Below are positions 3,584 to 29,819 of a stretch of 42,355 bases of DNA, in pieces. Origin of the DNA: Oscillospiraceae bacterium (GTDB lineage Bacteria > Bacillota > Clostridia > Oscillospirales > Oscillospiraceae); contig WQWL01000016.1 in assembly GCA_009785345.1 (NCBI GenBank), positions 1 to 42,355 of the forward strand. The letters are read 5' to 3'. The notes beneath the pieces were generated by a model. It saw only the letters and a program-made list of their open reading frames with translations. It was not told where the DNA came from and ran no database searches. Made by a program: the position numbers and the translations under genes. Every line of letters starts with the position of its first letter. Positions within the stretch are counted from its first letter, which is position 1.

Positions 3584-6500
3584 CTATTCTATTTCTTCTG
3601 GTTCCGGCACTACTACCAGACAACGTCGAGTTGCATCTCTGTGTATGCTGATATTTGCTCCATCATACAGATACACATCTCCGCAAACATCCCAACAGTA
3701 GTTAACTGATGCACGTATGGTAAATCTACCGTCACTTCCGACTACAACATTACCTTCATTGAAGAATCTTGAGCCGGTTACATTTTCTACCCAACCATTA
3801 ACAATCAGGTTACCGCCATCTGCAACTGTTATTGTACTTCCATTACCTTGGTTGTTGACTCTTCCGCCAGGAAGTACCACTAGATTACCTTCAATAATAA
3901 ACTCTACATCGCCACGTTGTATATTTAATGTGGTTTGAACATATAGTGTTCTTCCTTCAGGTATCACGAATGGACTGTGCTGTGTAAATATGCCCAAGTT
4001 ACCGCGCGTCGTAAGGATAACATCGCCATCCTCAAGTAAATCTGCTAAACGATTTGGATTTGTGCCATCAAAAACTGCATCTACAGTAAATGGCTCAAGT
4101 ACCAAACGTCTGTCTGAGCGCGTGCCGACGTTGTGGAACGTAATACCCGGCTCACCTTGTAGGAGAATCGGATCAAGAATTGCTATTGCTAATGTGTACT
4201 CGCTATTAGATAAGTTAGCAGGCACAGTTACGGAAAACTCAACTTCTGTACGTCCATCGTTAGCAGGAATAGAGATATTTCCGGCTACACCTAGTTCTGC
4301 AAAGCTACGATAATCAATGCGTGTGCCGTCAGCAGTATAGCGGTGTGCCCCGGCTGGAGGACGTGCATTGTTTATTGGTCTGTGACGTGGCATCCATTCA
4401 GTGATGTCGATATCTTCGATGATTTGTCTGCCCACCACATTGCCGTTGCTATCTACGAATGAGGCTTCAAATGGCCAGCTGCGATAGAAGGGCGCAACAC
4501 CTCTATTGTTTACTACAATTCTCACATCCACTGTTTCGCCGCGCACAAGTTCACCTGTTACTTCGGCTTCTTCAAGTGTGAATCTGTAGCCCATGTTATC
4601 GTATGCTGCATCGTTATTCTTGTGTGCACGCTGCATGTCACCGGTTGTGGCATTGGTGCGTCCGGCATTCGGTCCGCGAGGTGCCATATTCGATACATGT
4701 GTCCAGCGGAATGAATCTAGAGTGTTCATAATATGAACTCTATTTATACCATTAGCATTACCCCATGCTGTGCTGTCACGACCATAGTCATGCATTGCAC
4801 CTCTATGGAGGTCACCCATTAGACCTACATCAAATTGTACGTACTGCCAGAACCAGTTGGTTGGGCAAGATACGTCGCCGTATTCGCCACCTGTCCATGC
4901 ATGCATCCAATGTGTTGAATGCTGGGAAGCAGTTGTATATTGAGCACCGCTAAGACCGGTAAATTCAGGTACATTTGCCATATTTGCATTAATGTTTCCG
5001 GGACCTCCTGTTGGTCCGCCGTGACCGGGCCAACCACCCAAGAACCCTTGGCTTGCTGCATTGTTACCAGCAAGATTTTGACCTGTCATGCCTACAACAT
5101 ATTGAATGTTGTTATTATGACCTGTTTGATCGTTAAATTGACCGAAATTATGTCTTGAAAGAATCCAGTTCGGATAGCGCATACCTATTTGTACATTGTC
5201 ATTAGATGCGAAAGCATCGACATAGTGTGTTACAAACTGATATGCAAGTTGAGCATTCGGGAATGTACCCGTGTCTGCTGCTGGCCAGTTATGCCACTCG
5301 CCCCAGCGTCCAAGTGAGCCGAGTTGAACATTGGCAACTGCATTCCAGACTGAACCTGGACGTGCAATTTCTCCTGCCAATGCATTGATTGCTCTTTGAT
5401 GATAATCAAGCATTAAGTGATGCTCATATCTTGGACCCAGACCAACGCCGCCTGAAATGTCCGGTGGAGGAGTCAAGTACCATGTACCTTCAGGACCCCA
5501 GAAGTTATCCGGATGCCATCCATGGCTATTTTGTTGAGCCGATGGCGCTGCTCTTAGTCCGATGGGACGGCGATACGGAACACATCCGTCAGCGCATATT
5601 CTAAGATCCGCACCACTTGCCGGGTTTGGTATTGTGCAATGGAAATATCCTGACATGAATCTCGCAAAAAACGCTGCGTTCGGATCGTTAGGATTGCGCA
5701 TTCTTTGATACAAACCATCTCCCGGATCAAAGTCTGCACGATTTGGAATATTATCATCGCAAGCAGCATTCGGACGGTTTGGTTCTTCGCGCATTCTTTC
5801 AATCAGCCATGTGGGAATATCCGCAATCGCTTCGTTACGTAAGTTAATCATTGCAAGCTCTGTGTGACTTCTATTTAGACCTTGTGGGTCATTGTCATAC
5901 CAGCCACCCATGTAGTTATCACCATACCAATAGCCAAATGGTGAGCCAAACGGATAGTCCATGACGAAACGCAATTGAACATATACACCCAGTCTGGCAT
6001 ACTCTGCAAGTGCTTTCGTAACAAGATTTCCACGTGCACATTGATATTGATCCATGTTCGGTCCAACTACCGGATAGTCACCTTTTGTATACATTCTGAC
6101 ATTGTCCCAATCAAATACACCTGGCTCGGGCTCAAGGCTTCTCCACGATACATATGCATAGCCATAGAATTGACCATCAAGAGGTCCATCAGTTTCTGAG
6201 AACGGAATTACATTTCCTGTCTCCGGACATGTTGTTGTGTGAATCCAAGTTGCAGGGCAATTTTCAGGATCTGCGCATGTGTGAACAGGTGCTTCACTGC
6301 TTTGCAGATTTGCACCACCACCTCTTAGCGGGTTGAAGATAATATCGAAATCTTCCGTCGGAAAATATACACCTTCAGGGTTATAGCGATCAAAGCTTGT
6401 TGCTTGGAGTAATGTTGCAGTGTTTGTCGGTAAATGCACAGCAGTGCCTCTGCGAGCAGTTTCGGTATTACCTTGAGTTCCGCCTGCCATACCGCGCCAC

Positions 6501-7204: not shown

Positions 7205-7258
7205 AATATGTCTCCTATTCATTATTAAACACCACTTAATTAGTGTTCCTTAATAAGT

Positions 7259-7287
7259 ATTATATGATTGATGGTGTCTCATTTCAA
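7259..7287 (-). promoter_or_regulatory. Promoter of paralogue A
   Basis: TTGAAA (7287-7282) and TATAAT (7264-7259) are 17 bases apart on the minus strand, about 55 bases before the start codon. The sequence just downstream (ATACTTA...) is like that of the promoter at 11866. Confidence 0.75.
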
Positions 7288-7290
7288 GAC

Positions 7291-7308
7291 TTATTGTAAT
7301 TTTGTAAG
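7291..7308. promoter_or_regulatory. Conserved box upstream of promoter A
   Basis: The 18 bases TTATTGTAATTTTGTAAG (plus-strand reading) lie just upstream of the -35 box. An identical copy lies in the equivalent place at 11898-11915. This suggests a regulator site or an AT-rich UP element. Confidence 0.55.
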
Positions 7309-7377
7309 AATTACCAAATTGGTTTGTGGAATATGTCTTTTTGTCCTTTTTCTAGCTGTTGTTGGCAACAAAACAAT

Positions 7378-7418
7378 GCTCCTCCCAAAATTAAGTCTGA
7401 ACTTTCTTTGGGAGGAGC
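7378..7418 (-). terminator. Terminator after paralogue B
   Basis: On the minus strand GCTCCTCCCAAA pairs with TTTGGGAGGAGC and is followed by ATTGTTTTG. It begins 54 bases past the stop at 7472. Confidence 0.75.
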
Positions 7419-7471
7419 TATTATTTCTACCTATTCAGAAAGATCGTGTTTGTTACACTTTTACTGTAATG

Positions 7472-10400
7472 CTATTCTTCCGGCTCTATCACCGGACAAC
7501 GTCTGGTTGCATCTCTGTGAATGCTGATATTTGCTCCATCATATAGATACACATCTCCGCAGCATTCCCAACAATAGTACACTGATGCACGTACGGTAAA
7601 TCTGCCATTACTTCCAACTGTGACATTGCCTTCGTTGAAGAATCTTGAGCCGGTTACATTTTCTACCAAACCATTAACAATCAGGTTACCGCCATCTTCA
7701 ACCGTTATTGTACTTCCGTTACCTTGATTGTTGACTCTTCCGCCAGGAAGTACAACCAGATTACCATAGATTTGAAGCTCTACATCGCCTCGTTGTACAT
7801 TCAATGTCGTTTGGATGTATAGAGTTCTTCCTTCTGGTATCACAAATGGGCTGTGCTGTGCAAATATACCCAAGTTACCACGTGTTGTCAGGATAACATT
7901 GCTAGTTTTCAATAGGTCTACTAAGCGATTTGGGTTTGTGCCATCGAACTCAACAGTTGGCACAACCACTCCGTCAGTCACAACAAATGGCTCAAGTACA
8001 AGACGCATGTCGCTACGAACCGGATAGTTATGGAAACGGATACCTGGATTGTAATCTCTAAGAATCGGATCCAGTATAGCAATAGCTAAGGTGTGCTCAC
8101 CTTCAGGAAGGCTTGCAGGAATTGTCACTGCAAAATTGACTTCACTACGTCCATCAAATGCCGGAATATTCACTGTACCTTGTTGTGCTTGCTCAGCGCC
8201 CGGACGATAGTATACGCGTACTTCTTCGCCTGTAATATGACTGGTGACATAACGGTGATGTGTCATAGGCGGTCGTGCATTACTGAATGCACGGTGACGT
8301 GGAAGCCACTCTACGATATCTACACAATCAATAATGATTGCATCAGCTACTTGTCCTTCAGCGTTGATAAAGGACACTTCAAGCGGCCAGCTACGATGGA
8401 ATGGCGCAACACCGCGGTTGCTTACAACCATGTTCATGTCAACTGTTTCGCCACGATAGAGATTGCCATCGACTGCTACTTCTTCAACTACAAATCTATA
8501 GCCCATGTTGTCGAACATTGCGTCGTTGTTTTTATGCATTCTTTGATCTGTTGCATTACCTGGACGCGGACGACCCGCAATCGGACCACGAGGTGCAAGA
8601 TTCGATACATTACTCCAGCGGAAGGCGTATATGGTACGCATGATGGAGTTGAATTGCGGCTGTCCCCATCCGGAAACTAAATCACCACGTGAGATATCAC
8701 ATGTTACTGTTGAGCGAGGCGCTGCAGGGTTGGCAACGGAGGCAGAGGTGTCACCATACTCGCCACCGGACCATCTGTGCATCCAAAATGTAGGATCAGA
8801 GACGGCATTATTAAAGTTAGCTGCAGGAGTTCCCGGTATTCCTGTAAATGCCGGTACATTGGCCATATTGGCATTGCGGTTATACGTTATACTTGCAATG
8901 TTTACACCAATACCCGCATTGTGACCCGGTCCGCCTGCATGGTCAGTCGCACTTAGGTTTTGCTGTGCAATAACATTGACTTGTTCAAAGTGGGAAGTCT
9001 GACCGGCTTCATCATGGAAGTAGCCCATGCCATATCTCACACCAATCCAGTTTGCATAGCGCATACCAATGTGTACATTGGGGTTGCATGCGAATGCATC
9101 TATGTAGTGACGTACAAATGGATACGCAATTTGAGCATTCGGGAATGTGCCGGCATTTGCAGTTGGCCAGTTGTGCCACTCACCCCAGTGACCAAGTGTG
9201 CCGAGCTGTACTTGCACGACTGCGTTCCAGTCAGAACCAGGTCTTGCAATTTCTTCGGCTAGTAAGTTAATTAGTTGCTCGTGATAATCTAATAGTAAGT
9301 GGTGGTCATATCTCGGTGCAAGACCTACCGCACCGGAGATTGCAGGCCATGAGTAGTACCACATACCTTCCGGTCCCCAGTTGTTGTCTGGATGCCAACC
9401 TGCGAGGCGTTGGAGGCGACCGGTTCCATCAGAACAGTTGCCATCAACATTTGCTCTAACACCTGCCGGACGACGATAAGGAATACAACCGTCAGGACAT
9501 ACACGAAGATCAGCACCACCGGCTGGATTTGGAATTGCGCAACGGAAAAGTCCGTCTGTTACGCGTACAGGTTCGCCTTCTGCCGGATAGTAATATATTA
9601 CGTTATCATAATGTACGAATGGTTGATCTCTAAACCCTTGCCAGAATAATGCATGGGTATCGTTAGAATCTCTCATTCTGTCAAACAAACCATCATCTAC
9701 ATAACCGCCTTCGCCGCCATTTGCATTAGCATCCCATACGAAGTGACGTCTGTCAGGTTGGAATGGGATATTATGTTCGCAATTGTCATTTGGACGATTT
9801 GACTCGCGACGCATTGTCGCAACAGCCCAATCAGGAATATCTGCAATTGTACGATTTCTCAGGTTAACTGCACTACCTTGTTGTGCAGCACTAAGAGGAG
9901 TACCGCCATCATATGGAGGTGGGAAGTAATGCGCCGGAATCGGCACAAAGCCCGTGCCTGTTCTGTGGCCTGTTGGAAGATCCATGATCATGCGCAATTG
10001 AACATATTGTCCTCTGCTCGCATAATCTGCCATTAAATTTTCAAGCAATGGTGCACGCGGACCCCATTCGTCTCTATTTGGACCCCATACAGGATAGTCG
10101 TTCCAAATATATATTCTGGCTTGACTCAAGTCAACTTCATCTCTATTGGGCTGTAGACTTCTCCAGGATACATATGCATAACCCAGCGATTGTCCGGTGG
10201 GCGCACCACCTGATTGCATATTGGCACCGCCCCCTACCAGAGGGTTGAGAATGATACCAAAATACTCAGTCGGATAGTATACGCCTTCATCGCGTACACG
10301 TGCAAATCTCGCTGTTACAGGCATTAAAGATGTTCCGCCTGCAGGTAGATGTGCCGGTGTTGTACTGCGAACTGTTGCATCAAAAGCTTGCCATGAAATG

Positions 10401-11668: not shown

Positions 11669-11673
11669 ATGTA

Positions 11674-11894: not shown

Positions 11895-11897
11895 CTA

Positions 11898-12054: not shown

Positions 12055-15000
12055 TTACTCTTCAGGCTCTGGTTCTACTGGTGGTGGGCAACGTCTGGTT
12101 GCATCTCTGTGTATACTGATATTTGCTCCATCATATAGATACACATCTCCGCTGCATTCCCAACAATAGTACACTGATGCACGCACGGTAAATCTGCCCT
12201 CGCTTCCAACTGTGACATTACCTTCATTGAAGAATCTTGAGCCGGTTACATTTTCCACCCAACCATTAACAATCAGATTGCCGCCATCTTCAACCGTTAT
12301 TGTACTTCCGTTACCTTGATTGTTGATTCTTCCGCCAGGAAGTACCACTACATTACCATAGATTTGAAGCTCTACATCGCCACGTTGTACATTCAATGTC
12401 GTTTGGATGTATAGGGTTCTTCCTTCTGGTACCACAAATGGGCTGTGCTGTGTAAATATGCCAAGGTTACCGCGTGTTGTCAGGATAGCATTGCTTGTCT
12501 CCAGTAAGTCAGTTAAGCGATTCGGATTTGTGCCATCAAATTCAACTGTCATTACCGGCGGTACATCCACTGTAAGGCCGTCAATAACCAAACGTCCATC
12601 TGCACGTGTGCCGATATTGGCGAAACGAATGGCTGGCTCGTTATTTCTGAGAACAGGATCTAGAATCGCTATTGCTACAGAATACACACCGTCTTCGGAT
12701 AGTTCTGCTGGTATTTGAAGTTCGAAGTTTACAGCATTACGTCCATCGTGTGCAGGAATGAAGTAGGGACTATCTACAGGATGTATAGGTAATGTACGTA
12801 ATTGAGCAGCTGTGCGATAGTACACAGTATGCGTTTCGCCGATTGCATTTACTACTTCACGAGAACCGGCAGGAGTTGGGCGTGCATTATTTATCGCTCT
12901 GTGACGTGGCATCCACTCTGTGATATCCACATCTTCGATAACTTGGCGATATGCTATATTTCCGTCTGCATCAATGAACGATACTTCAAATGGCCATGTA
13001 CGGTAGAATGGTGCAACACCTCTGTTGTTAACTACCATACTCACATCGGCAGTTTCGCCACGTATAAGAGCACCATCTATTTCAATTTCTTCGATCACGA
13101 ATCTGTAGCCCATGTTGTCATGTGCTGCAAGATTGTTTTTTTGTATTCTTGTTGCTGCTGATGTTGCAGGTTGAGCTGTAGTCACATTATCCGGTCCGCG
13201 TCGCAATAGATTTGATGTGTTTGCCCAACGGAAAGCGTAGATTGTACGCATGATATTGATGCTGGTATTATCCCAGTCTCCGCCATATTGATTAGGAATA
13301 CCGGAAGCGACATTTATACCTGGCAAATCGCGATGCCATGCACCGGAGGAACTGTCACCCCATTCGCCGCCTGAGAAGCCACCGCTCATCCAGAAGGTTG
13401 GGTTACGGGCAGCATTGGCAAATTCATCAATATCGCGCATGGTTGGTGATGATCCGCTGTTGTACCAACTATCGCCTTCAAGTCCTGTGAACTCAGGAAC
13501 ATTTCTCATATTTGCATTAATGTTGTTATGCAATATGTAGTTGTTGTTCCAACCCCCACCCGGAATTGGATTTTGACCGTGGGTTCTATTACCACGACCC
13601 CAACCATTTGGTTCCCAATTGTCTGCAGCTAGATTTTGTCCGGCTAATGAGTTCCATACTGTGAAGTGTTGATTCTGGGCTGCCTGGTCGTGATGTATAC
13701 CCATATTATATCTTGTAGCTATCCAGTTAGCATAACGCATACTGAGTTGTACATTGTCAATTCCGGCAAAAGCGTCAACATAGTGGCGCACGATTTCATA
13801 TGCAAACTCTGCATTGGGGAATGTGTCTTTATCTTCTATTGGCCAATTATGCCATTCGGCCCAGTGACCTAAAGAGCCAATCTGAACTTGTGCTACTACT
13901 CTCCATGGGGAATCGGCATCGGCAATTTCTTCAGCCATCGCTCGAATAAGTGCCTCATGATGTATTGCAAGCATATGATGCTCATATCTCGGTCCAAGAC
14001 CCACCATACCACTGATATCATTAGGTGAATAGTACCATACACCTTCAGGACCCCAATTTTGATCACGTTGCCAGCCTGCACGTTGTTGCGAAATGCCACG
14101 AGCACCGGCAGGAAACTCATCATTTGCATTAAAGTCAGGACGTCTGTATGGAACACAACCATCCGGGCAGACACGTAAATCAGGACCGCCATTTGGAGCA
14201 GGAATCGCACAACGGAAGAAACCGTCCATGATTCCCTCTTGCTGTGCAGGTGTTAGAGGTGCACTTACGGCAAGTGGATTTTCAGGATTTGCTGCTACAT
14301 ATAATTGTTGATCTCTGAAGTTTTGGAAGAAGAGATAATCAGGATCAGCAGGATTACGCATTCTGGCAAATAATCCATCATCAACAAGAGCTTCTGCAAT
14401 GTCACACCATACGAGGTGAGGTCTGTCAGCTTGAAATGGAATGTTATGCTCACATTCAGAGTTTGGCAGATTTGATTGCCAACGCATATCATGAATTACC
14501 CATGTCGGAATATCAGCAACTCTGCGGTTCATTAGATTAAGATATGCAAGGCGTTGAGCTGCAGTTTTGGCTCCGGCTTCAACGGGATCAGGGAAAATAG
14601 GGTGAGTTCCCGGTACGGCAAGTCCCGGACCACCATGAGGACGATCCATAATCAAGCGTAGTTCAATGTAATGTCCTCGATCAGCGGCTGCTGTAAATAT
14701 ATCATCTAATAATGCGCCACGCGCAGGCCATTCGTCACGACCGGGACCGGCAGTTGGTAATGCTCCGTGAACAGATAGTACTGTTTGATCCAAATCAATT
14801 ACACCGGGTTCGGGTGACATATCACGCCATGCTACATGAACAAAGCCCATTACTCGTCCACCCGTTGGAGCACCTGTTCCTGCAACGGGACCGCCGCCCA
14901 TCAATGGGTTGAGGATAAGTGAGAAGTCTTCCTGTGGATAGAGTGCACCATCTCTTGCCTCACGGACGAATTGTCCGACAGGAGCTAGGCTCGTGCCACC

Positions 15001-15702: not shown

Positions 15703-15735
15703 TATTTTCTCCTTAAAATATTTTTGTCCCATTCC

Positions 15736-18700
15736 TTATGGTCGTATTCGAATGGCATCACGATTGATGTTAAGGGGATTACTTCCATCGATAAGTCCGT
15801 TGTCTATGAATATTGCTCTGGCACGTACCTCAAACCTTGCGTTATTGATTATGAGACCATAGTTATTTATAGTAGAATTCGTCACATTCTCCACATGCCC
15901 GTAATTCACTAAGCGACCACTTCCGGTAATGTTGATAGTACCGCCACCTGTACCGCTACCTTGGTTGTTGATTCTTCCGCCTTCAAGTACTACCACTGTG
16001 CCTTTTATAATGAGTTCAGCATCACGTTGTATGTTCAGAGTTGTTTCTATATACAGTGTTCTGCCTTCCGGTATTATAAACGGGCTGTGCTGTGCGAAGA
16101 TGCCCAGGTTACCACGAGTTTGTAGTGTTACATTATAATCGTCCAGAAGAGTACGCAAGCGTGCCGGATTCGTTCCGTCAAATTCTGTCGTAGGAACCGG
16201 TTCAACTTCATCATCTCTTTCAAATAAGAAGATAGGCTCACTAACTAGGCTTCCTTCACCGGCGCCGAATCTGATTCTGGCAGTATAGATTCCTGGTGCT
16301 TCAAACTGATCTTTGGAGATTCTTGTGGCTGCGGCACCGGGGAAGTATCCTGCATATACGAAACCGTTATTAAGGGTTCTGCCTCCAATACTTTGCTGTG
16401 AGAATACAATAACACTTCCGGTTTCAATCTCTCTGTTTCCTGCAACCAATGCTCCATCCCTGTAAATATCAACATAAACATAGGTGGTTCCGACTGCATT
16501 CTTGTTTTCTGTAATAAGGATAGGTTCAATGTCAATAAAGTTTCCACTTACGTCAGTAACATTACCAATGACTCCGAGTACACCGGCACTCGCACTTGTA
16601 ATGCTTATTCTGTCGATATTAGGTGCATTATTGGCATTGTCTCCCGCATGGAATGCGCCGCGTATTCGTATGGTATTCGGACCTTGTTGCAATGAGAGGG
16701 TAGTTGTCACAGGTTCAAATTCAGATCTTTGATTGAAGTCCCCTCTTGTGCCTTGAGCAATCAGCGGCGGAGATGTATCCCCCGGAACTGTGCTCACTGT
16801 AAGCAGTCTGGCATTGATTCTGTCGGGATCAGCAGCATTCGGGAAGGGCGAATGTCCTGCATCTGATCCTTGTACATAGTAAACACTTATGTTAAAGTCC
16901 CCGGCTGCAGGTGCATTGAAAACAACGTCAACACCGCGGGCGAGGTTTACATTACCTACCATTGCTCTATTGGATACATTTGCTGCTTCAGTTGAGGGTC
17001 TGCTGTTAATATTTGTACCCGGAGCGGGAGCGTAATCTCTAATAATACTATGACCTCCGCCCAGATCATAAATTCTATTTGCAGTGCCGGCAGTTATTGG
17101 TGTTGTACCATTAAAATTCGGAAATACAAGTCCGGCTTCAGCTTCCACTTGCCATGCTTCATAGGCACCATGCACGAAAACTTGGGCAGCAGATCTTCCG
17201 TCTACATTACTTGTCGCTGTTATTGTTGTGGTTCCTCTTGTAAGCACAGTTACTAAACCTGTCTCATCAACTGTAGCGATGACCGGATCCAAGCTTCTCC
17301 ATGTTACTGACGAGTCATAAGCACCTTCTACAACAGCTCTCAATTGAATTTGACCATTTGCTGTGAGCGTACCGGTTTGTGTGCCGGCAGGCAGTAAGCT
17401 TATTATCTGGCGAGGTGCATTGTCTCTGACAATGGCGCCCAATTGACGTATGTCAAAATCATTTTGAATACTTACAACAATTGCAGTATCGGTATCTATC
17501 GGATCACCTTCAACAGTAATCTCAAATTCTGCCATTACGGTAGGAGCAGCAATACTTGTAGCAGTTATTATCGCAGTGCCGCCACCAATCGCCAATACAA
17601 CACCATTATCATCAACTGAAGCAACAGCATTGTTACTGCTGCTCCATGTAACTGCTCTGTTTCCGGCAGTTTCAGGTAGTACAGTTGCTGTAACAGTCAG
17701 AATTTCTCCGCTGTCAACAGTAGCGCTCGTCGGATCCAAGACTATTGATACAGGAAGTATTGCCATATCCACAACTGTCACTTCTAAATCGAAAGTAAGA
17801 GTAGGGTCTTCAATGCTGGCAACTCTGATTGTTGTTGTTCCTGCTGTTAATGCTTGAACAAGTCCGTTAGTAACAGAAGCTACTTCCGGGTTTGTACTTA
17901 TCCATGTAACCCCTTGAGTCGAAGGCGTTCCGTCTCTGAGAACAACTCTGGCTTCTACAAGTGCTTGATCCTCACCTGCTGCTCCGTTGAGCGTTAAGTT
18001 CAGTTCACTTTCACTCGAGATAATGCCATAGGTTTGGACAATCCTTATTACCCTGCTTCCGCGTCCAATAAGGGTTTCGCTCCATTCAGTAACACCTCTG
18101 GCTATTACATCGCCATTCGGGTTTTCTGTAGTTGATGTCCAAAGGTCATACACATTAAATGCACCGCTGAGACCAATATCTTCAAATCTAAGCTCCCTAA
18201 GCTGCGGCGTGTTTTCACGGTTGAAAAATCCGATAACAGTATCTCCATTTTCAGTTTGTCCATAATAGATTTGTGTCAGTGGTCTAAATGTTAAACCTGC
18301 ACCGGGAGCTGTCGTATCTACATTGAAGAAATTTCCACCTGGACTATTACCCCCGCCCGGGAACGTATTTCTGCGGTTTGTGTCATTTCTTACATTCAGC
18401 CACGCCGGATTAGCTCCAGCCACGCCATCATTAATTAAGTCAACAAAGCTTTCAACAGGTTGTGCAATAAAGCGTTCTTCAATTAGCTCCATCATAGCCG
18501 GGTTAAACATAATATCAAGTGGTATTTCACGTAATTGCGGTAAAGAACCGGATAGTTGAATACCACTGCCGCCTAAGGTTTTTAACCCAAGAACATGCTT
18601 AAGTTCTGTATGCACACCTGCCGGTGCTCCCATGTCATAATCAAAAACTTTAGTTTGATGACCATCCAATATGACGCCATCTCTGCGATTCATGTTTGCC

Positions 18701-21429
18701 CAGAAATTAGTAGCGTCATGTTGATTCATGGTTGTACGCCACATGTCAGGCACTATGCGACCTCTTTCTTGATCATTAAAGCGACCCCAACCAGGACTGG
18801 AGTTTTGATCTTCAGAGATACGAATCATATCTGCATATGTTGCGCCATCTTCATAGAAATTTCTCATTCTTGAGTTAGCAGTAGAGATAAGGAAATCTGT
18901 TCCTGCTGCTTCACGCATCCATCTGAGTGCTAGTACATTTGCCATAGGTCCATAGCTTTCCTCATTATTTCGCATGAAGTCAACTTTCATGAATCCCATA
19001 CCAATGCTTCTGTAAAACTCAACCATTCCTTTTACATATTCTCTGGCTCCCGGTTTAAAGGGATCTATAATATACCAGTTTTGGAAGGAATACGCACCGC
19101 CATCACTATTTTGAATATTTGGTGTGCTGTAAGGCACTCGTCCGGGATAATCCTGCGGACTGGCACTTCCAAGCCCTTGTCCTGCGGCAAGTCCATCATT
19201 TTCCAAATTCCACACTCTTGATGGACGGCGTACAATATATCTTAGTGGTAAACCATTCGGATATTGTGCCGAAAGTTCAGGATTTTCCAGTGAAAATCTT
19301 GTTCTGGTGACTCCATCTGCTTCATACATTTCTGTATTCCAAATAGTAAGATCGGCAAATGCAGGATTATTGTATGCTCTGTTGAAATTCGACGTATTCA
19401 AATTCCAACCCACACCATCAGGCATAGGAGCACCAGTTACTCTGTTAATAAAAGGATGTTGGTCGTTATGAGGCATACATGGCCAATATACATACATCAT
19501 ATTAAGCCATAATGGGTTGTGGTATGTACCGGGTATCATTCCATGTGAAAGAACAAAGTTTGAAAAATCTTCATTGGATACGCCGTATGGAGTATATACT
19601 CTTTCACCTTCGATATAAATAAACTCTACTGTTTCCCATCCTCTGTAGTGGAATAATGGATAGCCGTGTTGATTTGGTTGTTGCCCGCCTCTGGAGGAAT
19701 CAACCCAACCGTCCATTGCAATAAAGTCAACGACGCCACCTCTGCCGTCATTCAACTCTAAATTATGGCGACCTCCTATGCCTTCTGTAGTTCCAAGCCA
19801 GTGTATTACATCGTAAATTTGCTGAACAAATCGCCACGCATTCGATGTATAACCTTCAACTGTCCAGAATACAGGTGCACGATTATGATAGTCAATCCAT
19901 GAAGGTAGATAACGATCTATATTGTAGTTAAGCGCATTATGATCGTTCGTTTCACGATAAGTAAAATATGGAGCTAACTGACCATTCACGGGATCCATCA
20001 AAACAGAACGGAATTGATAAGCAAGCCAAACAGGAGTGACAATGGTTTGCTCAATTCCTCTTCTGGGGCATAAAGATGCTTGGGGTGATAATATCAAACC
20101 TTGTCTGGCTGTTCTGAGATTGTTAAATGCAGCACTAACCTGAGCCTCTGTTGCATTGGTATTTTCCAAAACTGCCTCTGCCAAGGTTAGTTGATATTGT
20201 ACTTCGGTCCAACCAGCACTGAAATACCGCTCTTCCATGGTTCGTACTGCGTTTACAGAGGTTCTCAGAGCAGAAAAATCAACAGCAGTCTCTAATGCTC
20301 CAATCGCATTGTTTAATGCAAGAATTAAATTAGCAATTTCTGTGCTTGTTATGTTGGGATTTAACAGACCGGCTTCGGCAGCTTGCAGTGCCAAAATCAT
20401 GTCCGCCCATCCACCAACGAAGTCGCTCTCATCCAGTGCGTTAGCAGTGGCGATTACATTTCTGAGAGAAACCAGGCTCACCAAGGCATCTAAGGCTCCA
20501 AGCAGCTCGGATGTTGCTGTTGTGATCTGTGCCTCTGTTGCATTTGGATCATTTCTTACAACTATGGCTTGAGCCAAAACTGCTTGCATCGCTGACCAAC
20601 TACTTGCAGTATAATCTGCATCCGAAAGTGCTTGTGCTGCGTTAATCGCATTTGATAATGCAGGATTTGCGTCAAAGGGAGTAATAACAAAAGCCACAGG
20701 TGTAACTGAGCTACCATTGGTATGAGGTATAGTTACAACGGTCCTGAAGGTTTGTACTCCCGCTTCAAGGAATACTCTTTCTGAAAGAGTTACTGCAACA
20801 AGTATAGTATTATTGGCTATATTCGGTCGACCCAAAACATTTCTCAAAGTCTCCCTTGCAAACAATCGTTCACCACCAACTGCACTGATTGCACCGGTTG
20901 CGCCATTAGCACGTAGGTCAACAGGCACGCCAACCGGAGCAAGATTGCCTCCGGCAGGACCCACATAATTTTGCACTGTTGCTCTATTCATGTTCCATGC
21001 TCTGTAGACGAACTCAATTCTGTAGTATCCGGCTTCTACCGCTACAGGCGTGTTAATACTAACCCATTCGCCTAATGCCGGAGCTTGTGTACTCTCCCAA
21101 AAATGCAGGCTGCCATGGGTTGCTTCATTATTTACAGAGAAGTTACCAAAATTTGGTGATCTCTGAATTGTACTATTATACGCAAGACCATTACCAAATG
21201 GACTAAACCCGGCTGCCCCTTCAACTGCGCTAAATTGTGTTGCAATCGGGTTTCCTATATTTGTTGGTGTTGCTTCAATCGGGCTTTCGATATTCATCGG
21301 AGTTACTTCTGCATACGTATAATCCATCGATTGACTTGGTTCGTAGGCAACACCAGTAAAAGTCACGAAACTTAGAACTATACTGATGATTAATATTATT
21401 GCAAATATCTTTTTAGTTTTCTTCAACAT
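15736..21429 (-). CDS. Multidomain secreted glycoside hydrolase, alpha-galactosidase-clan-like, with FIVAR, Big_2, CBM35-like and shared tail module
   Basis: 1897 residues; ATG 21429 follows AAGGAG by six bases. Signal peptide 1-29; a jelly-roll-like, possibly sugar-binding domain (about 75-252); three FIVAR-type helical repeats (about 258-447). The catalytic region (about 455-1135) contains GMGFMKVDFMRN, whose Asp (817) fits the nucleophile of GH27/GH36-like enzymes, and ADMIRISEDQ, whose Glu/Asp (873/874) fits the acid/base; a beta-sandwich ends it. Three Big_2 domains (about 1137-1222, 1224-1307, 1330-1420; each with VTWxS and ASV/ATV), a CBM35-like domain starting WQVEAEAG (about 1425-1612), a linker domain, and the tail module (1750-1897) follow. 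Its tail lacks the cysteines of the other copies. Probably cleaves a galactose-type side chain of an external polysaccharide; specificity is inferred only. It is the middle gene of an operon. Confidence 0.75.
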   Translation of the reverse strand: MLKKTKKIFAIILIISIVLSFVTFTGVAYEPSQSMDYTYAEVTPMNIESPIEATPTNIGNPIATQFSAVEGAAGFSPFGNGLAYNSTIQRSPNFGNFSVNNEATHGSLHFWESTQAPALGEWVSINTPVAVEAGYYRIEFVYRAWNMNRATVQNYVGPAGGNLAPVGVPVDLRANGATGAISAVGGERLFARETLRNVLGRPNIANNTILVAVTLSERVFLEAGVQTFRTVVTIPHTNGSSVTPVAFVITPFDANPALSNAINAAQALSDADYTASSWSAMQAVLAQAIVVRNDPNATEAQITTATSELLGALDALVSLVSLRNVIATANALDESDFVGGWADMILALQAAEAGLLNPNITSTEIANLILALNNAIGALETAVDFSALRTSVNAVRTMEERYFSAGWTEVQYQLTLAEAVLENTNATEAQVSAAFNNLRTARQGLILSPQASLCPRRGIEQTIVTPVWLAYQFRSVLMDPVNGQLAPYFTYRETNDHNALNYNIDRYLPSWIDYHNRAPVFWTVEGYTSNAWRFVQQIYDVIHWLGTTEGIGGRHNLELNDGRGGVVDFIAMDGWVDSSRGGQQPNQHGYPLFHYRGWETVEFIYIEGERVYTPYGVSNEDFSNFVLSHGMIPGTYHNPLWLNMMYVYWPCMPHNDQHPFINRVTGAPMPDGVGWNLNTSNFNRAYNNPAFADLTIWNTEMYEADGVTRTRFSLENPELSAQYPNGLPLRYIVRRPSRVWNLENDGLAAGQGLGSASPQDYPGRVPYSTPNIQNSDGGAYSFQNWYIIDPFKPGAREYVKGMVEFYRSIGMGFMKVDFMRNNEESYGPMANVLALRWMREAAGTDFLISTANSRMRNFYEDGATYADMIRISEDQNSSPGWGRFNDQERGRIVPDMWRTTMNQHDATNFWANMNRRDGVILDGHQTKVFDYDMGAPAGVHTELKHVLGLKTLGGSGIQLSGSLPQLREIPLDIMFNPAMMELIEERFIAQPVESFVDLINDGVAGANPAWLNVRNDTNRRNTFPGGGNSPGGNFFNVDTTAPGAGLTFRPLTQIYYGQTENGDTVIGFFNRENTPQLRELRFEDIGLSGAFNVYDLWTSTTENPNGDVIARGVTEWSETLIGRGSRVIRIVQTYGIISSESELNLTLNGAAGEDQALVEARVVLRDGTPSTQGVTWISTNPEVASVTNGLVQALTAGTTTIRVASIEDPTLTFDLEVTVVDMAILPVSIVLDPTSATVDSGEILTVTATVLPETAGNRAVTWSSSNNAVASVDDNGVVLAIGGGTAIITATSIAAPTVMAEFEITVEGDPIDTDTAIVVSIQNDFDIRQLGAIVRDNAPRQIISLLPAGTQTGTLTANGQIQLRAVVEGAYDSSVTWRSLDPVIATVDETGLVTVLTRGTTTITATSNVDGRSAAQVFVHGAYEAWQVEAEAGLVFPNFNGTTPITAGTANRIYDLGGGHSIIRDYAPAPGTNINSRPSTEAANVSNRAMVGNVNLARGVDVVFNAPAAGDFNISVYYVQGSDAGHSPFPNAADPDRINARLLTVSTVPGDTSPPLIAQGTRGDFNQRSEFEPVTTTLSLQQGPNTIRIRGAFHAGDNANNAPNIDRISITSASAGVLGVIGNVTDVSGNFIDIEPILITENKNAVGTTYVYVDIYRDGALVAGNREIETGSVIVFSQQSIGGRTLNNGFVYAGYFPGAAATRISKDQFEAPGIYTARIRFGAGEGSLVSEPIFLFERDDEVEPVPTTEFDGTNPARLRTLLDDYNVTLQTRGNLGIFAQHSPFIIPEGRTLYIETTLNIQRDAELIIKGTVVVLEGGRINNQGSGTGGGTINITGSGRLVNYGHVENVTNSTINNYGLIINNARFEVRARAIFIDNGLIDGSNPLNINRDAIRIRP

Positions 21430-21454
21430 AGAGTTCTCCTTCATTTCTTGTTAT

Positions 21455-21544: not shown

Positions 21545-24500
21545 TTAATCTTCAGGCTCCGGCTCTACCACCGGGCAACGTCTGGTTGCATCTCTGTGTA
21601 TACTGACATTTGCTCCATCATATAAGTACACATCTCCGCAGCATTCCCAACAATAGTACACTGATGCACGTACGGTAAATCTGCCCTCGCTTCCAACTGT
21701 GACATTACCTTCATTGAAGAATCTTGAGCCGGTTACATTTTCTACCAAGCCATTAACAACTAAGTTTCCGGTATCTTCAACGGTTATTGTGCTTCCGTTA
21801 CCTTGGTTGTTGACTCTTCCACCTGGAAGTACCACTAGATTACCGTAGATTTGAAGCTCTACATCGCCACGTTGTACATTTAATGTGGTTCGAATGTATA
21901 GAGTTCTTCCTTCTGGTATCACAAACGGACTGTGCTGTGCAAATATGCCAAGGTTACCGCGTGTCGTTAGGATAACATTGCTTGTCTCCAGTAAGTCAGT
22001 TAAACGATTCGGGTTTGTGCCATCGAATTCGACAGTTGGCACTACAACAACAACAATAATCGTATAAACTATGCCATCCGCTACACGCACTGTATCGCCT
22101 GTTGCAACACCTGCTAAACCACCTAAGCTAAGCGGCCAGTCCTGACCAGCTACGTAGAATATAACCATATCGTCAGCTGCTTCAAGTACTGTGATCGTAC
22201 CTCTTAATTGATCTCCAAATGTTGGATGATTGTAAATCATGTCCTCAGAAACAGTAAACGTGATTGTTTGTTCCTCTTGATCAATTACTCCCGCAACATC
22301 GTCTATTGATAAGGCAGTAATGTCTAGCAACTCTACAACTGCTAGTGCATCTAACACCAAGCGTCCATCAGGACGTGTACCAATGTTGGCGAAACGGATT
22401 GCAGGCTCGTTATCTCTGAGAACCGGATCCAGTATAGCAAGAGCTATAGTAAGTTCGCCTTCTGGAAGATCTGCAGGTACTGTTAATGCAAAGTTAACCG
22501 CATTACGTCCGTCGTGTGCAGGAATGAAGTAAGGACTGTCTACAGGATGTATTGGTAATGTACGTAATTGATCAGCAGTGCGATAATATACTGTATGCGT
22601 TTCGCCGATCGCATTAACTACTTCACGAGTACCGGCCGGTGCTGGACGTGCATTATTTATCGCTCTGTGACGTGGCATCCACTGAGTGATATCCACATCT
22701 TCAATAACTTGGCGATATACTACATTTCCGTCTGCATCAATGAATGATACTTCAAAGGGCCATGTGCGGTAGAATGGTGCAACACCTCTATTATTTACAA
22801 CCATGTCCACGTTGACAGTTTCGCCACGTGCAAGAGCGCCATCAACTTCAATTTCCTCGATGACAAATCTGTAGCCCATGTTATCGTGTGCTGCAAGGTT
22901 GTTCTTTTGTAGTCGAGTTGCATCAGCTGTTGTAGGTTGAGCAGTGGTCACATTATTTGGACCGCGAGGCAACAGGTTTGATGTATTAGCCCAACGGAAA
23001 GCGTAGATAGTACGCATGACGTTAATCATGAGATTGTCCCAGTCTCCTCCAAACTCATTGGGAGTCCATGTGCCGCCTACATTTGTCAGTGCCGGCATAT
23101 TATGATGCCAAGAACCTGATGAATTATCACCCCATTCGCCGCCTGACCAACCACCACTCATCCAGAAGGTTGGGTTACGGGCAGCATTTGCGTATTCATC
23201 AATATCAGCCATTGTAGGTGATGAGCCGCTGTTGTACCAGCTATCGCCTGCAAGGCCTGTGAACGCAGGAACATTTCTCATGTTTGCATTTATGTTATTG
23301 TGTAAAAAGCTGGTATTATTTGGAGCGCCGGTAGGCAGATTTATGCCTTGCGTCCTATTACCGCGACCCCAGCCGTTTGCGTCCCAGTTGTCTGCGGCCA
23401 GATTTTGCCCGGCTAATGAGTTCCACACCGTGAAGTGCGCATTTTGTGCTGCCTGGTCATGGAATATACCCATATCATATCTTGTGGCTATCCAGTTTGC
23501 ATAGCGCATTGCGAGCTGTACATTGTCAAACCCGGCAAATGCATCAATATAGTGACGCACGATTTCATAAGCAAACTCTGAATTCGGGAAAGTGTCTTTA
23601 TCTTCTATTGGCCAGTTATGCCACTCACCCCAGTGACCGAGGGATCCTAGCTGAACTTGTGCTACAACTCTCCATGGTGATTCCGGATCACCGATTGCTT
23701 CTGCCATTGCCACAACGAGATCCTCATGGTGTTTTGCAAGCATATGATGCTCGTATCTTGGTCCGAGACCTACCCATCCGGAGATGTCATTAGGTGAGAA
23801 ATACCATACACCTTCAGGTCCCCAGCTGTTATCTTGACTCCAGCCTGCACGAAGTTGCGTAAGACCACGGCCGGTCGTGCCGCCACCTACAAAGTTACCC
23901 TCTGCGTTAAAGTCAGGGCGTCTGTATGGTACACAGCCCGCCGGGCAGACACGCAAATCAGGAAGAGGTATAGGAACACCAAACTCATCTAGCTCAGTGC
24001 CACGTGATGGATTCGGAATAGCACAACGGAAGAAGCCATCCGTAATTCCGGCTCGCTGTGCAGGTGTTGGCGGTGCACTTACGCCTGCCGGATTTTCCGG
24101 ATTTGCGGCTACGTATAATTGTTGATCCCTGAAGTTTTGGAAGAAACGATAATGTGGGTCAGCAGGATTACGCATTCTTTCATATAATCCGTCACTAACT
24201 AATACAGGATTGCCATAACCATCTAAAACGGGATTGCCATAGCCATCAAGTTGAGGAACCATGAATGGTCTGTCTGCTTCAAAGGGAATATTATGCGGAC
24301 AGTTCGCAGGTGATCCATCTGCTTGATAAGGTGTGTTCGATTGCCAGCGCATATCATGAATTACAAAAGTAGGTACATCGGCTACCCTGCGATTCCACAA
24401 ATTCATATATGCGAGTCGTTGAGCCGCACTGAGTTGCCCTGCAAGAGTGGAATTTGGGAAAACCTGGTTGCCAAATGGATCTGTTGCATCTGCAGCCACA

Positions 24501-25573: not shown

Positions 25574-25577
25574 TATT

Positions 25578-25661
25578 TTCTCCTTAAAATATTTTTGCCT
25601 CTTTCTTCTGAGGTTGCGGCTCCTCATTTTCAACCACAATCTGAAGCGCGCAATGTGGTTG
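25578..25661 (-). promoter_or_regulatory. Structured, conserved leader of the 25573 operon
   Basis: CAACCACA (25631-25638) and TGTGGTTG (25654-25661) form an 8-bp stem. Next on the minus strand comes the block shared with the leader of paralogue B, GAGGAGCC-G-CAACCTCAGAA (25606-25625), then GGCAAAAATATTTT and the ribosome site. Confidence 0.5.
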
Positions 25662-25738: not shown

Positions 25739-25767
25739 ATTATAATTCCACACTTACCCCATTGCAA
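25739..25767 (-). promoter_or_regulatory. Promoter of the 25573-12055 operon
   Basis: TTGCAA (25767-25762) and TATAAT (25744-25739), 17 bases apart on the minus strand. The leader is about 160 bases. Confidence 0.7.
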
Positions 25768-25966
25768 TAGAAACTACACGAAAATGATAGTATTTGTATA
25801 AACACACAAAAGAGTTGGCGAAAATAGACAACACTTGAGGCATTTATCTTTTGCCACTTCTTAACCTCAAATAACATTTTTGTCACGTTGATCATAAATA
25901 TGAATCTTCCTCAGCAACTCATCGTTTTTACATAATCGACTAAAACAAAAAAATATGCATGCAGTG

Positions 25967-25995
25967 TTGAATAATATCAACATATGTTATATAAT
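25967..25995 (+). promoter_or_regulatory. Promoter of paralogue F
   Basis: TTGAAT (25967-25972) and TATAAT (25990-25995), 17 bases apart. A second TATAAT at 26070-26075 lacks a good -35 box. Confidence 0.6.
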
Positions 25996-26216
25996 GCCGA
26001 TTACTAATGGTCGATTAATAAAGACGTATTAATAATGCACATGTGTGCAAACAAGTAGATTATACGAGCTATAATTACTTGGATAATGAAAGAGGTGATA
26101 ATTAGAAAAATATAAATGTGTTTGTAATTAAACACAACTTTTATCCTTGGATAAGGATTTTGGAGTTCCAACACCGGTAACAAAAAGAAAAAAATAATTT
26201 TTAGAAGGAGAACAGA

Positions 26217-29200
26217 ATGCCAAAATCAGTAAGAAAAATTATTGCCTTAGTATTAGCTCTAAGTTTTATGGCGAGCGTACTGGCAATCAGTGCTATTGCG
26301 GAAGAGTATGATGCATATGAAAATTATGCTGTGAGTTCAGAAGCATTAGTAGAGGAAGACCCTCCTGTTACAACTGAGGAAGACCCTTCGGAAGAACTTC
26401 CTGTCACAGCCGTGGAAGATCCTTCGGTTGCAACAGGAGTAACTTTTGCAGAGTTTTCAGGTCGTGTTGATGAGTTAACAGGTACAGAATGGACAAGAGT
26501 TGATCATAATGCGTACACTGCATCAGGACTTACACTTCGTGTAACATCCGGAGGAGATGTAGTATATGCGGTCGTTGAAGGACCAAATCGTGATACTCAA
26601 AATGTATTCTACATAAGTATCGCAGGTAGAGAAGGTGGATTTAACTTCATCGGTCGTCCAAATGTACATTATGTCGTTGCTAATGGATTTATTTATCGTG
26701 TTCTTAACGATATGACAACCGTTCGTAGCGAAATGGCGCTTCCTGCGTCTAATGTTAACGCAAATGCAAATCCAAATGTTCCGGGTCCTGTTATGACTTA
26801 CATGCCGGAGTGGTTTGGTGCTGATAATGATCCAAACAGAGATGCGGCAAGACTTGAACGTATCGCTATGGAGCATTTCAGAACATGGACAGGTTTGCGA
26901 CTAAGGCTTGACCAAATTGGAAATCCCGATCCTGCTGACATCAGCATTTCATGGCGCGGGATGGGCACAGCCCCGGGACCTGCCGGTCAAGTTGTTGTGA
27001 ATCTTCCTACGAATACAGCTGAGTTACTTCCACTCACTGAAACATTCGAAAGATACAGACCGGAAGGCGTCTATCATCCAGCTGAAGATTACAGTATTAT
27101 CTTTAATCCTCTACGCGGTGGCGGATCAAATCTTCAAAGTAGTGAAGCTCCAAATTGTACATGTGTAGATGAGCAAGGTAATCCACTGCCGGATTGTAGA
27201 TTTGCACATATTCATACAGATGCCGCAGGCAATCCACTAATTGGAACAGACGGTCCTATAGATGGTCAGTTTTATGGTTATGCCTACATCACATGGAGAA
27301 GCCTCGAGCCTGAATCAGGACTTTTTGACTGGGATAATGTCAGAATGTATACAAAAGGCGACTATCCTGTGGTAGGACCAAACATGGATCAATACCAATG
27401 TGCACGCGGTCACTTGGTAACTCGCGCACTTGAAGAATTTGCTGCACAAGGTATATACGTACAGCTACGCTTTGTAATGGACTATCCATTTGGCTCACCA
27501 TTTGGACACTGGTATGGTAATAACTATGTTGGTGGTTGGTTCCATAATGACCCACAAGGCTTAAATAGAAGTCACACTGACTTGGCAATGATTAATCTGC
27601 GCAATGAAGCTATAGCGGATATTCCAACATGGCTGATTAACAGAATGCGCGAAGAGCCGAATCGTCCAAATGCAGCATGCCCTGATAATATACCTAATCG
27701 TCCTGACTTTGATCCGGGAGATGGTTTGTATCAAAGAATGCGCAATCCCGAGGATCCAAATGCAACATTTTTTGCAAGATTCTTGTCAGGTAATTTCCAT
27801 TGTGCAATCCCTAATCCGGCAGGCGGAGCAGATCTTAGAATCTGCGCAGCGGGATGTATTCCATACCGTCGCCCTGTAGGACTCGGTGGCAATCCAAATG
27901 CTGCCCAAGCCGCTCTAGGGTGGCATCCAAACAACTACTGGGGTCCTGAAGGTACATGGTATGTAACTCCACCACCACAAATCTCCGGCGGTGTTGGACT
28001 AGGACCAAGATATGAACATCACTTAATGCTCGAATATCATGAAAGAGCAATCAATGCATTAGCTGCAGAAATTGCACGTCCGGGCTCAGTCTGGAACGCG
28101 GTTGGTAATGTTCAGCTAGGCTCTCTCGGACGCTGGGGCGAGTGGCATAACTGGCCAGCTGAACACACAGGCACATTTCCGAATGCTCAACTTGCATATC
28201 AGTTTGTCCTTCACTATATCGAAGCATTTTCATGTAATGACAACATCCAAATAGGAATGCGCTATCCCAACTGGATTTTGTCCAGATACAATTTTGCACA
28301 ATTTAATGACCAAACAGGTCATGGTGGTAATCTAACATATTCAAATGCAATGACAGGTCAAAATCTTTCTGGAAACGATGCGGCAAACTTAAGTGGATGG
28401 CCCGGTCATGGTGGAGCAACAGGACTTGGTGGAAACATAAATGCAAATATGGCGAATGTTCAGACATTTACAGGGCTTAACGGTACTCAATATACTCAAG
28501 CTGCACGACATCCAACACATTGGATGTACGGTTGGGTAGGCGGTGAGTATGGTGATCAGTCTTCTCCATCCAACTGGTTCTGGCAATACGTACAATTTGA
28601 TGTGTCACGTATGGGCGATCTTCACAGAGGTGGAATGCATGATTATGGTCTTGGAACCGGTTCAACAAGAGTTCATGTCATGAATACCATTGACTCCTTT
28701 CGCTGGACTCATGTGTCCAATTTGGCACCTCGTGGTCCAAATGCCGGACGCACCAATGCTACAACCGGCGACATGCAACGTGCACATAAGAATAACGATG
28801 CTGCATATGATAACATGGGTTACAGATTCACTCTGGAAGAAGTCGAAGTAACGGGTGAATTAGAGCGTGGTGAAACTGTTGATGTAAGAATGGTTATTAA
28901 CAACAGAGGTGTTGCACCTTTCTATCGCAGCTGGCCGTTTGAAGCCTCATTTGTAGACAGTAATGGCAATGTAGTAGGCAGACAAATTATTGAAGATGTG
29001 GATATCACCGAATGGATGCCACGTCACAGACCAATAAATAATGCACGTCCTCCGGCTACCAATTTCCGACTTACAGCAAACGGAGCTCGTGTATACTATC
29101 GCACCTTTGCAGAACTTGGTGCAGCTGGAAATGTATTTATTCCTGCTAACGATGGACGTACAGAAGTTGAATTCTCAGTGACTGTACCTGCTAACTTATC

Positions 29201-29819
29201 AAATGCTGAGTACACATTAGCAATAGCCATACTGGATCCAGTTCTTCTACAAGGTGAGCCGGGTATTACATTCCATAATCTCGGTACGCGCTCAGACAGA
29301 CGTTTGGTACTTGAGCCATTCACTGTGGCCGCAATTTTTGATGGCGCAAACCCGAATCGCCTAGCAGATTTACTTGAGGACGGGGATGTTATTTTGACGA
29401 CACGCGGCAACTTGGGTATATTTGCACAGCATAGCCCGTTCGTGATACCTGAAGGAAGAACTTTATATGTTCAAACCACATTAAATATACAGCGTGGCGA
29501 TGTAGAGTTTATTATTGAAGGTAATCTAGTGGTACTTCCTGGCGGAAGAGTTAACAATCAAGGTAATGGAAGTACAATAACAGTTGCAGATGGCGGCAGG
29601 CTGATTGTTAACGGTTGGGTAGAAAATGTAACCGGCTCGAATTTCTTCAACGAAGGTAATGTCGTAGTCGGAAGCGAAGGCAGATTTACCGTACGTGCAT
29701 CAGTTAACTACTGTTGGGATGTTTGCGGAGATGTGCGCCTATATGACGGAGCAAATGTCAGTATACACAGAGATGCAACTAGACGCTGTGCTGTAGTAGA
29801 ACCGGAGCCTGAAGAGTAA
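26217..29819 (+). CDS. Secreted DUF4832-type glycosidase-like protein with shared tail module (paralogue F)
   Basis: 1200 residues; ATG 26217 follows AAGGAG by six bases. Signal peptide ends AIA-EEY and is followed by a Pro/Glu-rich linker with repeats of EEDP/VEDP (about 38-70). Then the family beta domain (about 80-260), FNPLRGGG, a Cys-containing insert, WRSLEPESG, VQLRFVMDYP, LGRWGEWHNWP (Glu near 640), VGGEYGD (Glu near 775), beta-sandwich and tail module (1041-1191, YCWDVCGD). It is the only paralogue on the plus strand and its nearest relative is the one at 3584, not its neighbour at 21545. This suggests duplication followed by inversion or ancient divergence. Own promoter and terminator. 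Probable role: extracellular glycan binding or cleavage, substrate unknown. Confidence 0.8.
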   Translation: MPKSVRKIIALVLALSFMASVLAISAIAEEYDAYENYAVSSEALVEEDPPVTTEEDPSEELPVTAVEDPSVATGVTFAEFSGRVDELTGTEWTRVDHNAYTASGLTLRVTSGGDVVYAVVEGPNRDTQNVFYISIAGREGGFNFIGRPNVHYVVANGFIYRVLNDMTTVRSEMALPASNVNANANPNVPGPVMTYMPEWFGADNDPNRDAARLERIAMEHFRTWTGLRLRLDQIGNPDPADISISWRGMGTAPGPAGQVVVNLPTNTAELLPLTETFERYRPEGVYHPAEDYSIIFNPLRGGGSNLQSSEAPNCTCVDEQGNPLPDCRFAHIHTDAAGNPLIGTDGPIDGQFYGYAYITWRSLEPESGLFDWDNVRMYTKGDYPVVGPNMDQYQCARGHLVTRALEEFAAQGIYVQLRFVMDYPFGSPFGHWYGNNYVGGWFHNDPQGLNRSHTDLAMINLRNEAIADIPTWLINRMREEPNRPNAACPDNIPNRPDFDPGDGLYQRMRNPEDPNATFFARFLSGNFHCAIPNPAGGADLRICAAGCIPYRRPVGLGGNPNAAQAALGWHPNNYWGPEGTWYVTPPPQISGGVGLGPRYEHHLMLEYHERAINALAAEIARPGSVWNAVGNVQLGSLGRWGEWHNWPAEHTGTFPNAQLAYQFVLHYIEAFSCNDNIQIGMRYPNWILSRYNFAQFNDQTGHGGNLTYSNAMTGQNLSGNDAANLSGWPGHGGATGLGGNINANMANVQTFTGLNGTQYTQAARHPTHWMYGWVGGEYGDQSSPSNWFWQYVQFDVSRMGDLHRGGMHDYGLGTGSTRVHVMNTIDSFRWTHVSNLAPRGPNAGRTNATTGDMQRAHKNNDAAYDNMGYRFTLEEVEVTGELERGETVDVRMVINNRGVAPFYRSWPFEASFVDSNGNVVGRQIIEDVDITEWMPRHRPINNARPPATNFRLTANGARVYYRTFAELGAAGNVFIPANDGRTEVEFSVTVPANLSNAEYTLAIAILDPVLLQGEPGITFHNLGTRSDRRLVLEPFTVAAIFDGANPNRLADLLEDGDVILTTRGNLGIFAQHSPFVIPEGRTLYVQTTLNIQRGDVEFIIEGNLVVLPGGRVNNQGNGSTITVADGGRLIVNGWVENVTGSNFFNEGNVVVGSEGRFTVRASVNYCWDVCGDVRLYDGANVSIHRDATRRCAVVEPEPEE

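Follow-up and report, generated by a model that had tools for sequence, protein, structure and literature searches.

Why should six exported proteins of two enzyme types end in one and the same module? The question is raised by a stretch of 42,355 nucleotides (the window) from an Oscillospiraceae bacterium, contig WQWL01000016.1 (here C16) of the draft assembly GCA_009785345.1, which counts 3.51 Mb on 237 contigs and is 85.9% complete with 2.2% contamination. A sequence-only reading of the window had suggested that the shared module could be a new surface- or matrix-attachment or sorting domain. We consider it fairly probable that the module serves, in its own lineage, for the non-covalent surface attachment of exported enzymes in place of SLH domains. 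We favour this reading because the proteins that carry the module (the hosts) share export, have no common substrate and no LPXTG tails, while SLH and CsaB are absent from this genome. The module would hold the enzymes on the bacterium's own surface and would do the job done by SLH domains in many sister species. Its ligand would most likely be a cell-wall or capsular polysaccharide, bound by a group of conserved polar residues (R70, N72, Q74, E98, N99, R116, R120 and R141); in view of the conserved arginines and of precedents in other bacteria, we prefer a polysaccharide to a protein partner. We infer the fold, binding, ligand and surface location of the module from the evidence set out below. 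Should this reading be correct, a new non-covalent display tag would be on offer. Of the first proposal, attachment stands as the best reading given the census of this genome and the SLH/CsaB contrast, whereas sorting does not, given the copies that lie near the N-end or inside proteins.

All six module copies read from the window (Table 1) are present, each translating without a stop into 148-151 residues that are 59-95% identical to the first copy. A profile search of the whole genome gave 54 module matches at E<=1 on 31 contigs. Chance is excluded, since 53 of the 54 reach 4.7e-30 or better; the remaining, divergent one stands at 2.8e-11. Partial matches at the ends of contigs C137 and C161 look like a single copy split by the assembly, so that the true copy number is about 53. 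When all 54 copies are aligned, mean column identity is 54%. The absence of Cys noted for the glycosidase copy holds, and 33 of the 54 copies in all are devoid of Cys, with two or more in 17; the Cys pattern described at first is therefore a trait of a subgroup.

Pfam scans were made of the six window proteins and 47 further hosts, leaving out L050, a module fragment at a contig end; host labels were given by us from Pfam matches and core similarity. The hosts belong to DUF4832 (five), Melibiase_C (one), GH95, GH3 (two), GH16 (four), GH5, GH10 (two), GH30 (one over the cut-off), GH43, GH53 (two), GH85 (two), PL8 (L032), PL11 (four), DUF5695 (two), Peptidase_S8, S15 peptidases (three), M6-like peptidases (two, one of them under the cut-off), Metallophos (two) and esterases, and include a polysaccharide deacetylase that combines Dockerin_1, Cohesin and the module (L037/L105, contig C28). 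The GH30 label of L067 is a match below the cut-off, and the labels GH95-like (L065) and FG-GAP (L059, L041) come from core similarity or matches below the cut-off. Several hosts have no Pfam match, or accessory domains only. Thus, the hosts span over a dozen families, a scale that the sequence-only reading had understated when it described exported proteins of two enzyme types; that the module is shared between enzyme types is borne out. The scan also agrees with the five DUF4832 proteins and one unrelated glycosidase-type protein recognised in the window. The latter reads as alpha-galactosidase-like (GH36-type) from its Melibiase_C match and our own reading, no catalytic domain model being matched. 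The idea that the module is a polymorphic part of the DUF4832 core is ruled out, since it is present on many families other than DUF4832.

The substrates of the hosts differ: plant glycans, N-glycans, the target of the PL8 lyase, and peptidase and phosphatase substrates. As the hosts have no substrate in common, a role in retention that is independent of the substrate is favoured. Among the hosts that match a Pfam family, most are nonetheless carbohydrate-active, and the carbohydrate-binding module CBM37 itself is reported to bind many polysaccharides (PMC4081043), which would suit a module that targets enzymes to food by binding a plant or host glycan. We rate this explanation low, as quite improbable, because S8, S15 and M6-like peptidases and metallophosphatases are among the hosts; the host enzymes, moreover, have quite different substrates, and six of them already bear known binding domains.

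What the hosts do have in common, as far as their sequences tell, is export. A simple script finds a signal-like N-end in 50 of the 51 module open reading frames with their own start, and in the 51st one can be made out by eye when reading starts at an internal Met; a further hydrophobic stretch is found in 35 of the 51 at a loose setting. Both counts use simple thresholds and cannot stand in for a proper prediction of signals or membrane segments. The census of exported proteins of at least 700 residues (7/8) took in loci chosen for holding the module and is biased upward. In agreement with the absence of a visible LPXTG anchor reported for the window, none of the 51 reading frames has an LPXTG-type motif in its last 120 residues. 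The module is less acidic than its own host in 51 of 52 cases, and in the window the tail that follows it counts 0-11 residues and is acidic in five of the six copies.

By script, the module is C-terminal in 48 of the 54 copies (one of them truncated where its contig ends), and in 44 of these at most 14 residues follow it. Such a position is what a C-terminal secretion or sorting signal handled by a dedicated machine would have, in the manner of the type IX secretion system or of PEP-CTERM. However, four copies start near the N-end, at residues 31, 35, 48 and 111 (contigs C10, C3, C49 and C79), in the GH43 host the module lies inside the protein and is followed by GH43 sequence, and the last copy is a contig-end fragment. 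The odd positions are scattered on the module tree (5 changes, against a mean of 4.9 in shuffles), which means that copies are retained at one end of the protein or the other. A C-terminal position is therefore common but does not define the module, and the idea of a sorting domain, which calls for a strictly C-terminal one, is not supported. Since the hosts also have signal-like N-ends of their own, we give this explanation hardly any credence, chiefly in view of the copies found near the N-end or inside a protein.

No known family accounts for the module. Pfam and NCBIfam searches with the six whole window proteins gave no model over its cut-off that covers it, so that an overlooked known domain is ruled out, and searches of PDB sequences with profiles gave nothing convincing (best E 0.042 and 0.56). 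From these three sources, then, no known anchoring or binding domain emerged as a strong match. Searched alone against Pfam, the 54 modules match 23 families at E<=1, weakly, and mostly of the beta-helix repeat type; SLH, CWB2, Dockerin_1 and Cohesin are not among them. Fil_haemagg is matched weakly by 31 copies (best E 1.6e-4) and G8 by eight (best E 1.9e-5); cut-offs are known for the first member only, whose Fil_haemagg match falls below it. A narrow literature search, covering titles and the openings of abstracts, found no description of such a module.

These weak matches to beta-helix repeats support the beta-rich nature first proposed, and a probable solenoid. Along the module, short hydrophobic stretches alternate with turns, and hydrophobicity repeats at a lag of 20 residues (0.5% of 1000 shuffles are as high; 44 lags were tried). 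An AlphaFold2 model built from the six window copies is unreliable (predicted local distance difference test, pLDDT, 44.2; predicted template modelling score, pTM, 0.44) and has a helix at residues 6-15 followed by strands. The fold is probably a beta-helix; the module would be a compact, short, right-handed one, in which an N-terminal helix precedes a small number of coils, each about 20 residues long. Numbered after the copy at 15739-16182, the polar positions N25, N50, R70, N72, Q74, E98, N99, S103, R116 and R120 are near-invariant (0.96-0.98 each), and R141 is conserved at 0.91.

The proposal that the module stands in place of SLH comes from a comparison of the 19 genomes of the genus. Their SLH (PF00395) matches number at least 150, then 126, 87, 86, 75, 59, 56, 48, 41, 33, 21, 2, 2, 1 and 1, and 0 in four genomes, among them the one studied here, in which seven candidates were scored and none matched at E<=1e-3. 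SLH is thus present in 15 of the 19, with at least 21 matches in 11 of the 18 congeners. CsaB exceeds its cut-off in eight of the 19, each of which has at least 33 SLH matches, and in none of the genomes with 0-2 SLH matches; the single CsaB match in the present genome lies below it (46.1 bits against 213.1) and is the PF04230 gene of the window. Three genomes carry SLH without CsaB over the cut-off, namely G009, G012 and G015 (21, 75 and 59 SLH matches), G012 and G015 being 64% and 69% complete. The SLH and CsaB models also pass their cut-offs in four of 14 unrelated control genomes each. A sortase is present in all 19 genomes, and the present genome has ten Gram_pos_anchor matches at the limit used. 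In SLH-free G002, the exported proteins listed from a 400-kb sample showed by eye no other shared C-terminal module, without an all-against-all comparison.

One enzyme pair illustrates the contrast. The PL8 host L032 ends in the module, while its relative L175, in congener G004, has three SLH stretches at its end; the two proteins are 33% identical over 1515 columns. The pair was found by comparing 40 SLH regions of congeners with the module hosts, which gave six matches at E<=1e-8; the remaining matches cover little sequence (69-196 columns in the two best pieces of each of the five). The SLH profile used was grown by iteration from one seed, and SLH positions are approximate. If the proposed attachment is correct, the attachment device of a large set of exported enzymes can differ wholly inside one genus.

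Several observations weigh against attachment in place of SLH. The genome with the module is a single draft, with the completeness and contamination given above. Seven congeners (G002, G005, G006, G007, G008, G010 and G013) lack the module although their SLH matches number just 0-2 and no CsaB of theirs passes its cut-off, so that loss of SLH need not bring replacement by the module; the relation between SLH and module is a contrast and no rule. Just one pair with swapped attachment came out of the 40 SLH regions, and a search of the 18 congeners with a PL11 host brought up no counterpart at E<=1e-30. The sole structure model is the low-scoring one described above. Finally, the module is not the only binding domain of every host, since six also bear F5/8C (L031, L048, L060), CBM4_9 (L044, L062) or Laminin_G_3 (L066), and L037 holds Dockerin_1 and Cohesin beside it.

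This last host leads to another explanation, in which the module would bind a surface scaffold protein, dockerin-cohesin fashion, to form an enzyme complex. The range of enzymes is indeed wide, as in cellulosomes. The genome has seven cohesin matches, some in proteins with LPXTG-like tails. Dockerin matches, however, are only four at the limit used against 54 for the module, cohesins are also found in five congeners that all lack the module, and no partner turned up, though no systematic partner search was made. We regard docking to a protein scaffold as unlikely.

The module seems to be confined to its own genome. A profile of the six window copies, with which all 18 congeners were searched, matched none of 59 relatives at E<=1e-3 (18 of the same genus, 18 of the same family and 23 of the same order). 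In samples that overlap each other, a profile of the 54 copies gave weak matches in 15 of 299 further genomes from the family at E<=1e-3 and in 4 of 393 further ones from the order at E<=1e-6, and none in 397 further ones from the phylum at E<=1e-6. The best outside match reaches 6.5e-11, and all but one cover only part of the module. The loci inspected (nine of the 15 family matches, of which eight gave alignments, and the four of the order) are stretches of generic beta-solenoid repeats. One locus, L158, is matched over module positions 6-130, the region of the N-terminal helix included, and hints at the source of the fold. Peptide-pattern scans, two of genome contigs and one of viral contigs, found no relative. 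Altogether, the profile searches of Pfam and of genomes gave no known family and no confident copy in relatives.

Within the genome, the copies are under purifying selection. Among 1326 pairs of 52 copies (the two partial copies at contig ends were left out), nonsynonymous divergence (pN) exceeds synonymous divergence (pS) in none, and the median ratio of the corresponding substitution rates (dN/dS) is 0.19 over the 561 pairs for which it is computable. At synonymous sites, the copies are also mostly closer to each other than their hosts are. Among the five DUF4832 genes, dS is 0.28-0.64 for the module against 0.85 to saturation for the core, and the module value is lower in all ten pairs. Where the cores of two hosts are alike, pS is usually lower for the module than for the core (28 of 31 pairs, with a gap of about 0.1 or more in 24). 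Only two S15 pairs, on different contigs, and one GH3 pair, on the same contig (C30), depart from this. A low synonymous divergence as an intrinsic property of the module is ruled out by the median pS of 0.75 over all 1326 pairs.

Similarity at the DNA level follows the limits of the module. Among the 70 longest of 525 alignments, the similarity between copies in unrelated hosts reaches no further than about 18 bases beyond the module on either side; the S15 peptidase gene L058 and the GH85 gene L060, for example, are 89.5% identical over 478 columns. As exceptions, L031 and L065 are similar over about 140 bases before the module and L049 and L063 over more than 100 bases after it. The GH10 gene L069, on another contig, and the DUF4832 gene 21545-25639 have about 300 bases before the module in common, and a linker segment may therefore travel with the module.

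On the module tree, a weak one (stars on 8 of its 49 inner branches; the two partial copies left out), copies cluster by contig, with 13 changes against 23.3 in shuffles (0/200 as low). Host-family counts, which omit five unlabelled rows and all single-member families, reveal clustering for families on the same contig (7 changes against 13.6, 0/200 as low) and none for families on different contigs (14 against 13.8, 159/200 as low). The simplest account would be local gene conversion of the module with occasional transfer onto new genes. Since the copies are closer than their hosts at synonymous sites in 28 of 31 pairs, the module can be read as a homogenised cassette, and would then be an example of concerted evolution acting on a single domain rather than on whole genes.

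Could the cassette spread with no binding role at all, or could modules merely stack end to end? Beta-helices are capable of stacking, which is known for them in general, and neighbouring genes exchange module copies here. On the other hand, purifying selection and the polar residues kept across divergent copies argue that the module has a function, and the N-ends of the hosts, where they can be judged, point to export. Self-association or selfish spread is thus very improbable in our view, and attachment remains the reading that we prefer.

Precedents for such attachment exist. In reports on it (PMC4081043; PMC4300822), CBM37 is described as unique to Ruminococcus albus, with 77, 51 and 102 copies, sits on many enzyme types and fixes enzymes to cell-wall carbohydrate; orthologues of these enzymes in a relative (flavefaciens) bear dockerins instead (PMC4081043). 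The module resembles this pattern, with one species, dozens of copies, many enzyme types and relatives that use another device. It differs in that the device of the relatives is SLH here and dockerins there, in being found also on peptidases and phosphatases, and in the homogenisation of neighbouring copies. The likeness that we note is one of pattern; a tblastn search with copy 4 gave no match at E<=1 in a plasmid collection that includes pRUMAL01 and pRUMAL02 of R. albus 7, although whether these plasmids encode CBM37 is unconfirmed. If our reading is correct, the module would be a second case of the CBM37 pattern, in which one species holds its enzymes on the cell by dozens of copies.

Two other anchors and one group of repeats can be compared. 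SLH, with its pyruvylated wall polymer made by CsaB, would do the same job, as the PL8 pair illustrates, but it has no sequence match to the module, which is one unit of about 148 residues whereas SLH comes in repeats (the Pfam model has 44 positions), and no CsaB over the cut-off exists in this genome. CWB2 of Clostridioides difficile is likewise reported to be a non-covalent anchoring motif borne by many proteins and to recognise an anionic wall polymer (PMC4973711); it is used in tandem, whereas the module is single and does not match it. Finally, Fil_haemagg, G8 and long beta-solenoid surface repeats share weak Pfam matches with the module, and weak matches are found in long solenoid proteins of other genera. 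They are a possible source of its fold; those inspected, however, are stretches of longer repeat proteins, while the module is a single compact and strongly conserved unit.

Table 1. Module copies and adjoining features in the window
Feature	Positions	Strand	Remarks
Module copy 1	3620..4072	-	C-terminal; host, DUF4832 protein 3584-7222
Module copy 2	7496..7948	-	C-terminal; host, DUF4832 protein 7472-11668
Module copy 3	12088..12540	-	C-terminal; host, DUF4832 protein 12055-15732
Module copy 4, without Cys	15739..16182	-	C-terminal; host, alpha-galactosidase-like protein 15736-21444
Module copy 5	21575..22027	-	C-terminal; host, DUF4832 protein 21545-25639
Module copy 6	29337..29789	+	C-terminal; host, DUF4832 protein 26217-29819
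Host of copy 4	15736..21444	-	1902 residues; matches Melibiase_C, FIVAR and Big_2 (Pfam)
Surface-polysaccharide cluster	29988..42168		Methyltransferase, two GT2, pyruvyl transferase, flippase-like protein, core-2/I-branching glycosyltransferase, others
Polysaccharide pyruvyl transferase (PF04230)	33001..34098	+	In the cluster adjoining the module array

The cluster next to the module array, with its pyruvyl transferase, is a possible maker of the module's ligand. A fuller scenario can be drawn from it: a lineage without the SLH/CsaB pair common in the genus may have rebuilt enzyme attachment with a home-grown short beta-helix cassette, copied between neighbouring genes by gene conversion, that binds the polysaccharide of this very cluster. 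We put it forward tentatively and hold it to be rather doubtful. The link between cluster and ligand is weak because three congeners (G007, G013 and G016) have CsaB-type matches below the cut-off and no module.

Some minor observations complete the picture of the window and its genome. The cluster also holds one small kinase-like gene and a second, at 37691-38485, that is similar by eye, as well as a GH5 gene (39904-41181) whose product has a hydrophobic N-end and no module. No RNA family or tRNA was found within the window. Elsewhere in the genome, L103 (contig C51) and L104 (contig C129) are cohesin proteins with LPXTG-like tails, and the C-ends of their neighbours are dockerin-like by eye; they may form a small separate cohesin system. 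At positions 1-2781, the window holds the first part of a large protein of surface type, which has repeats and DUF11 matches and is cut off by the contig end.

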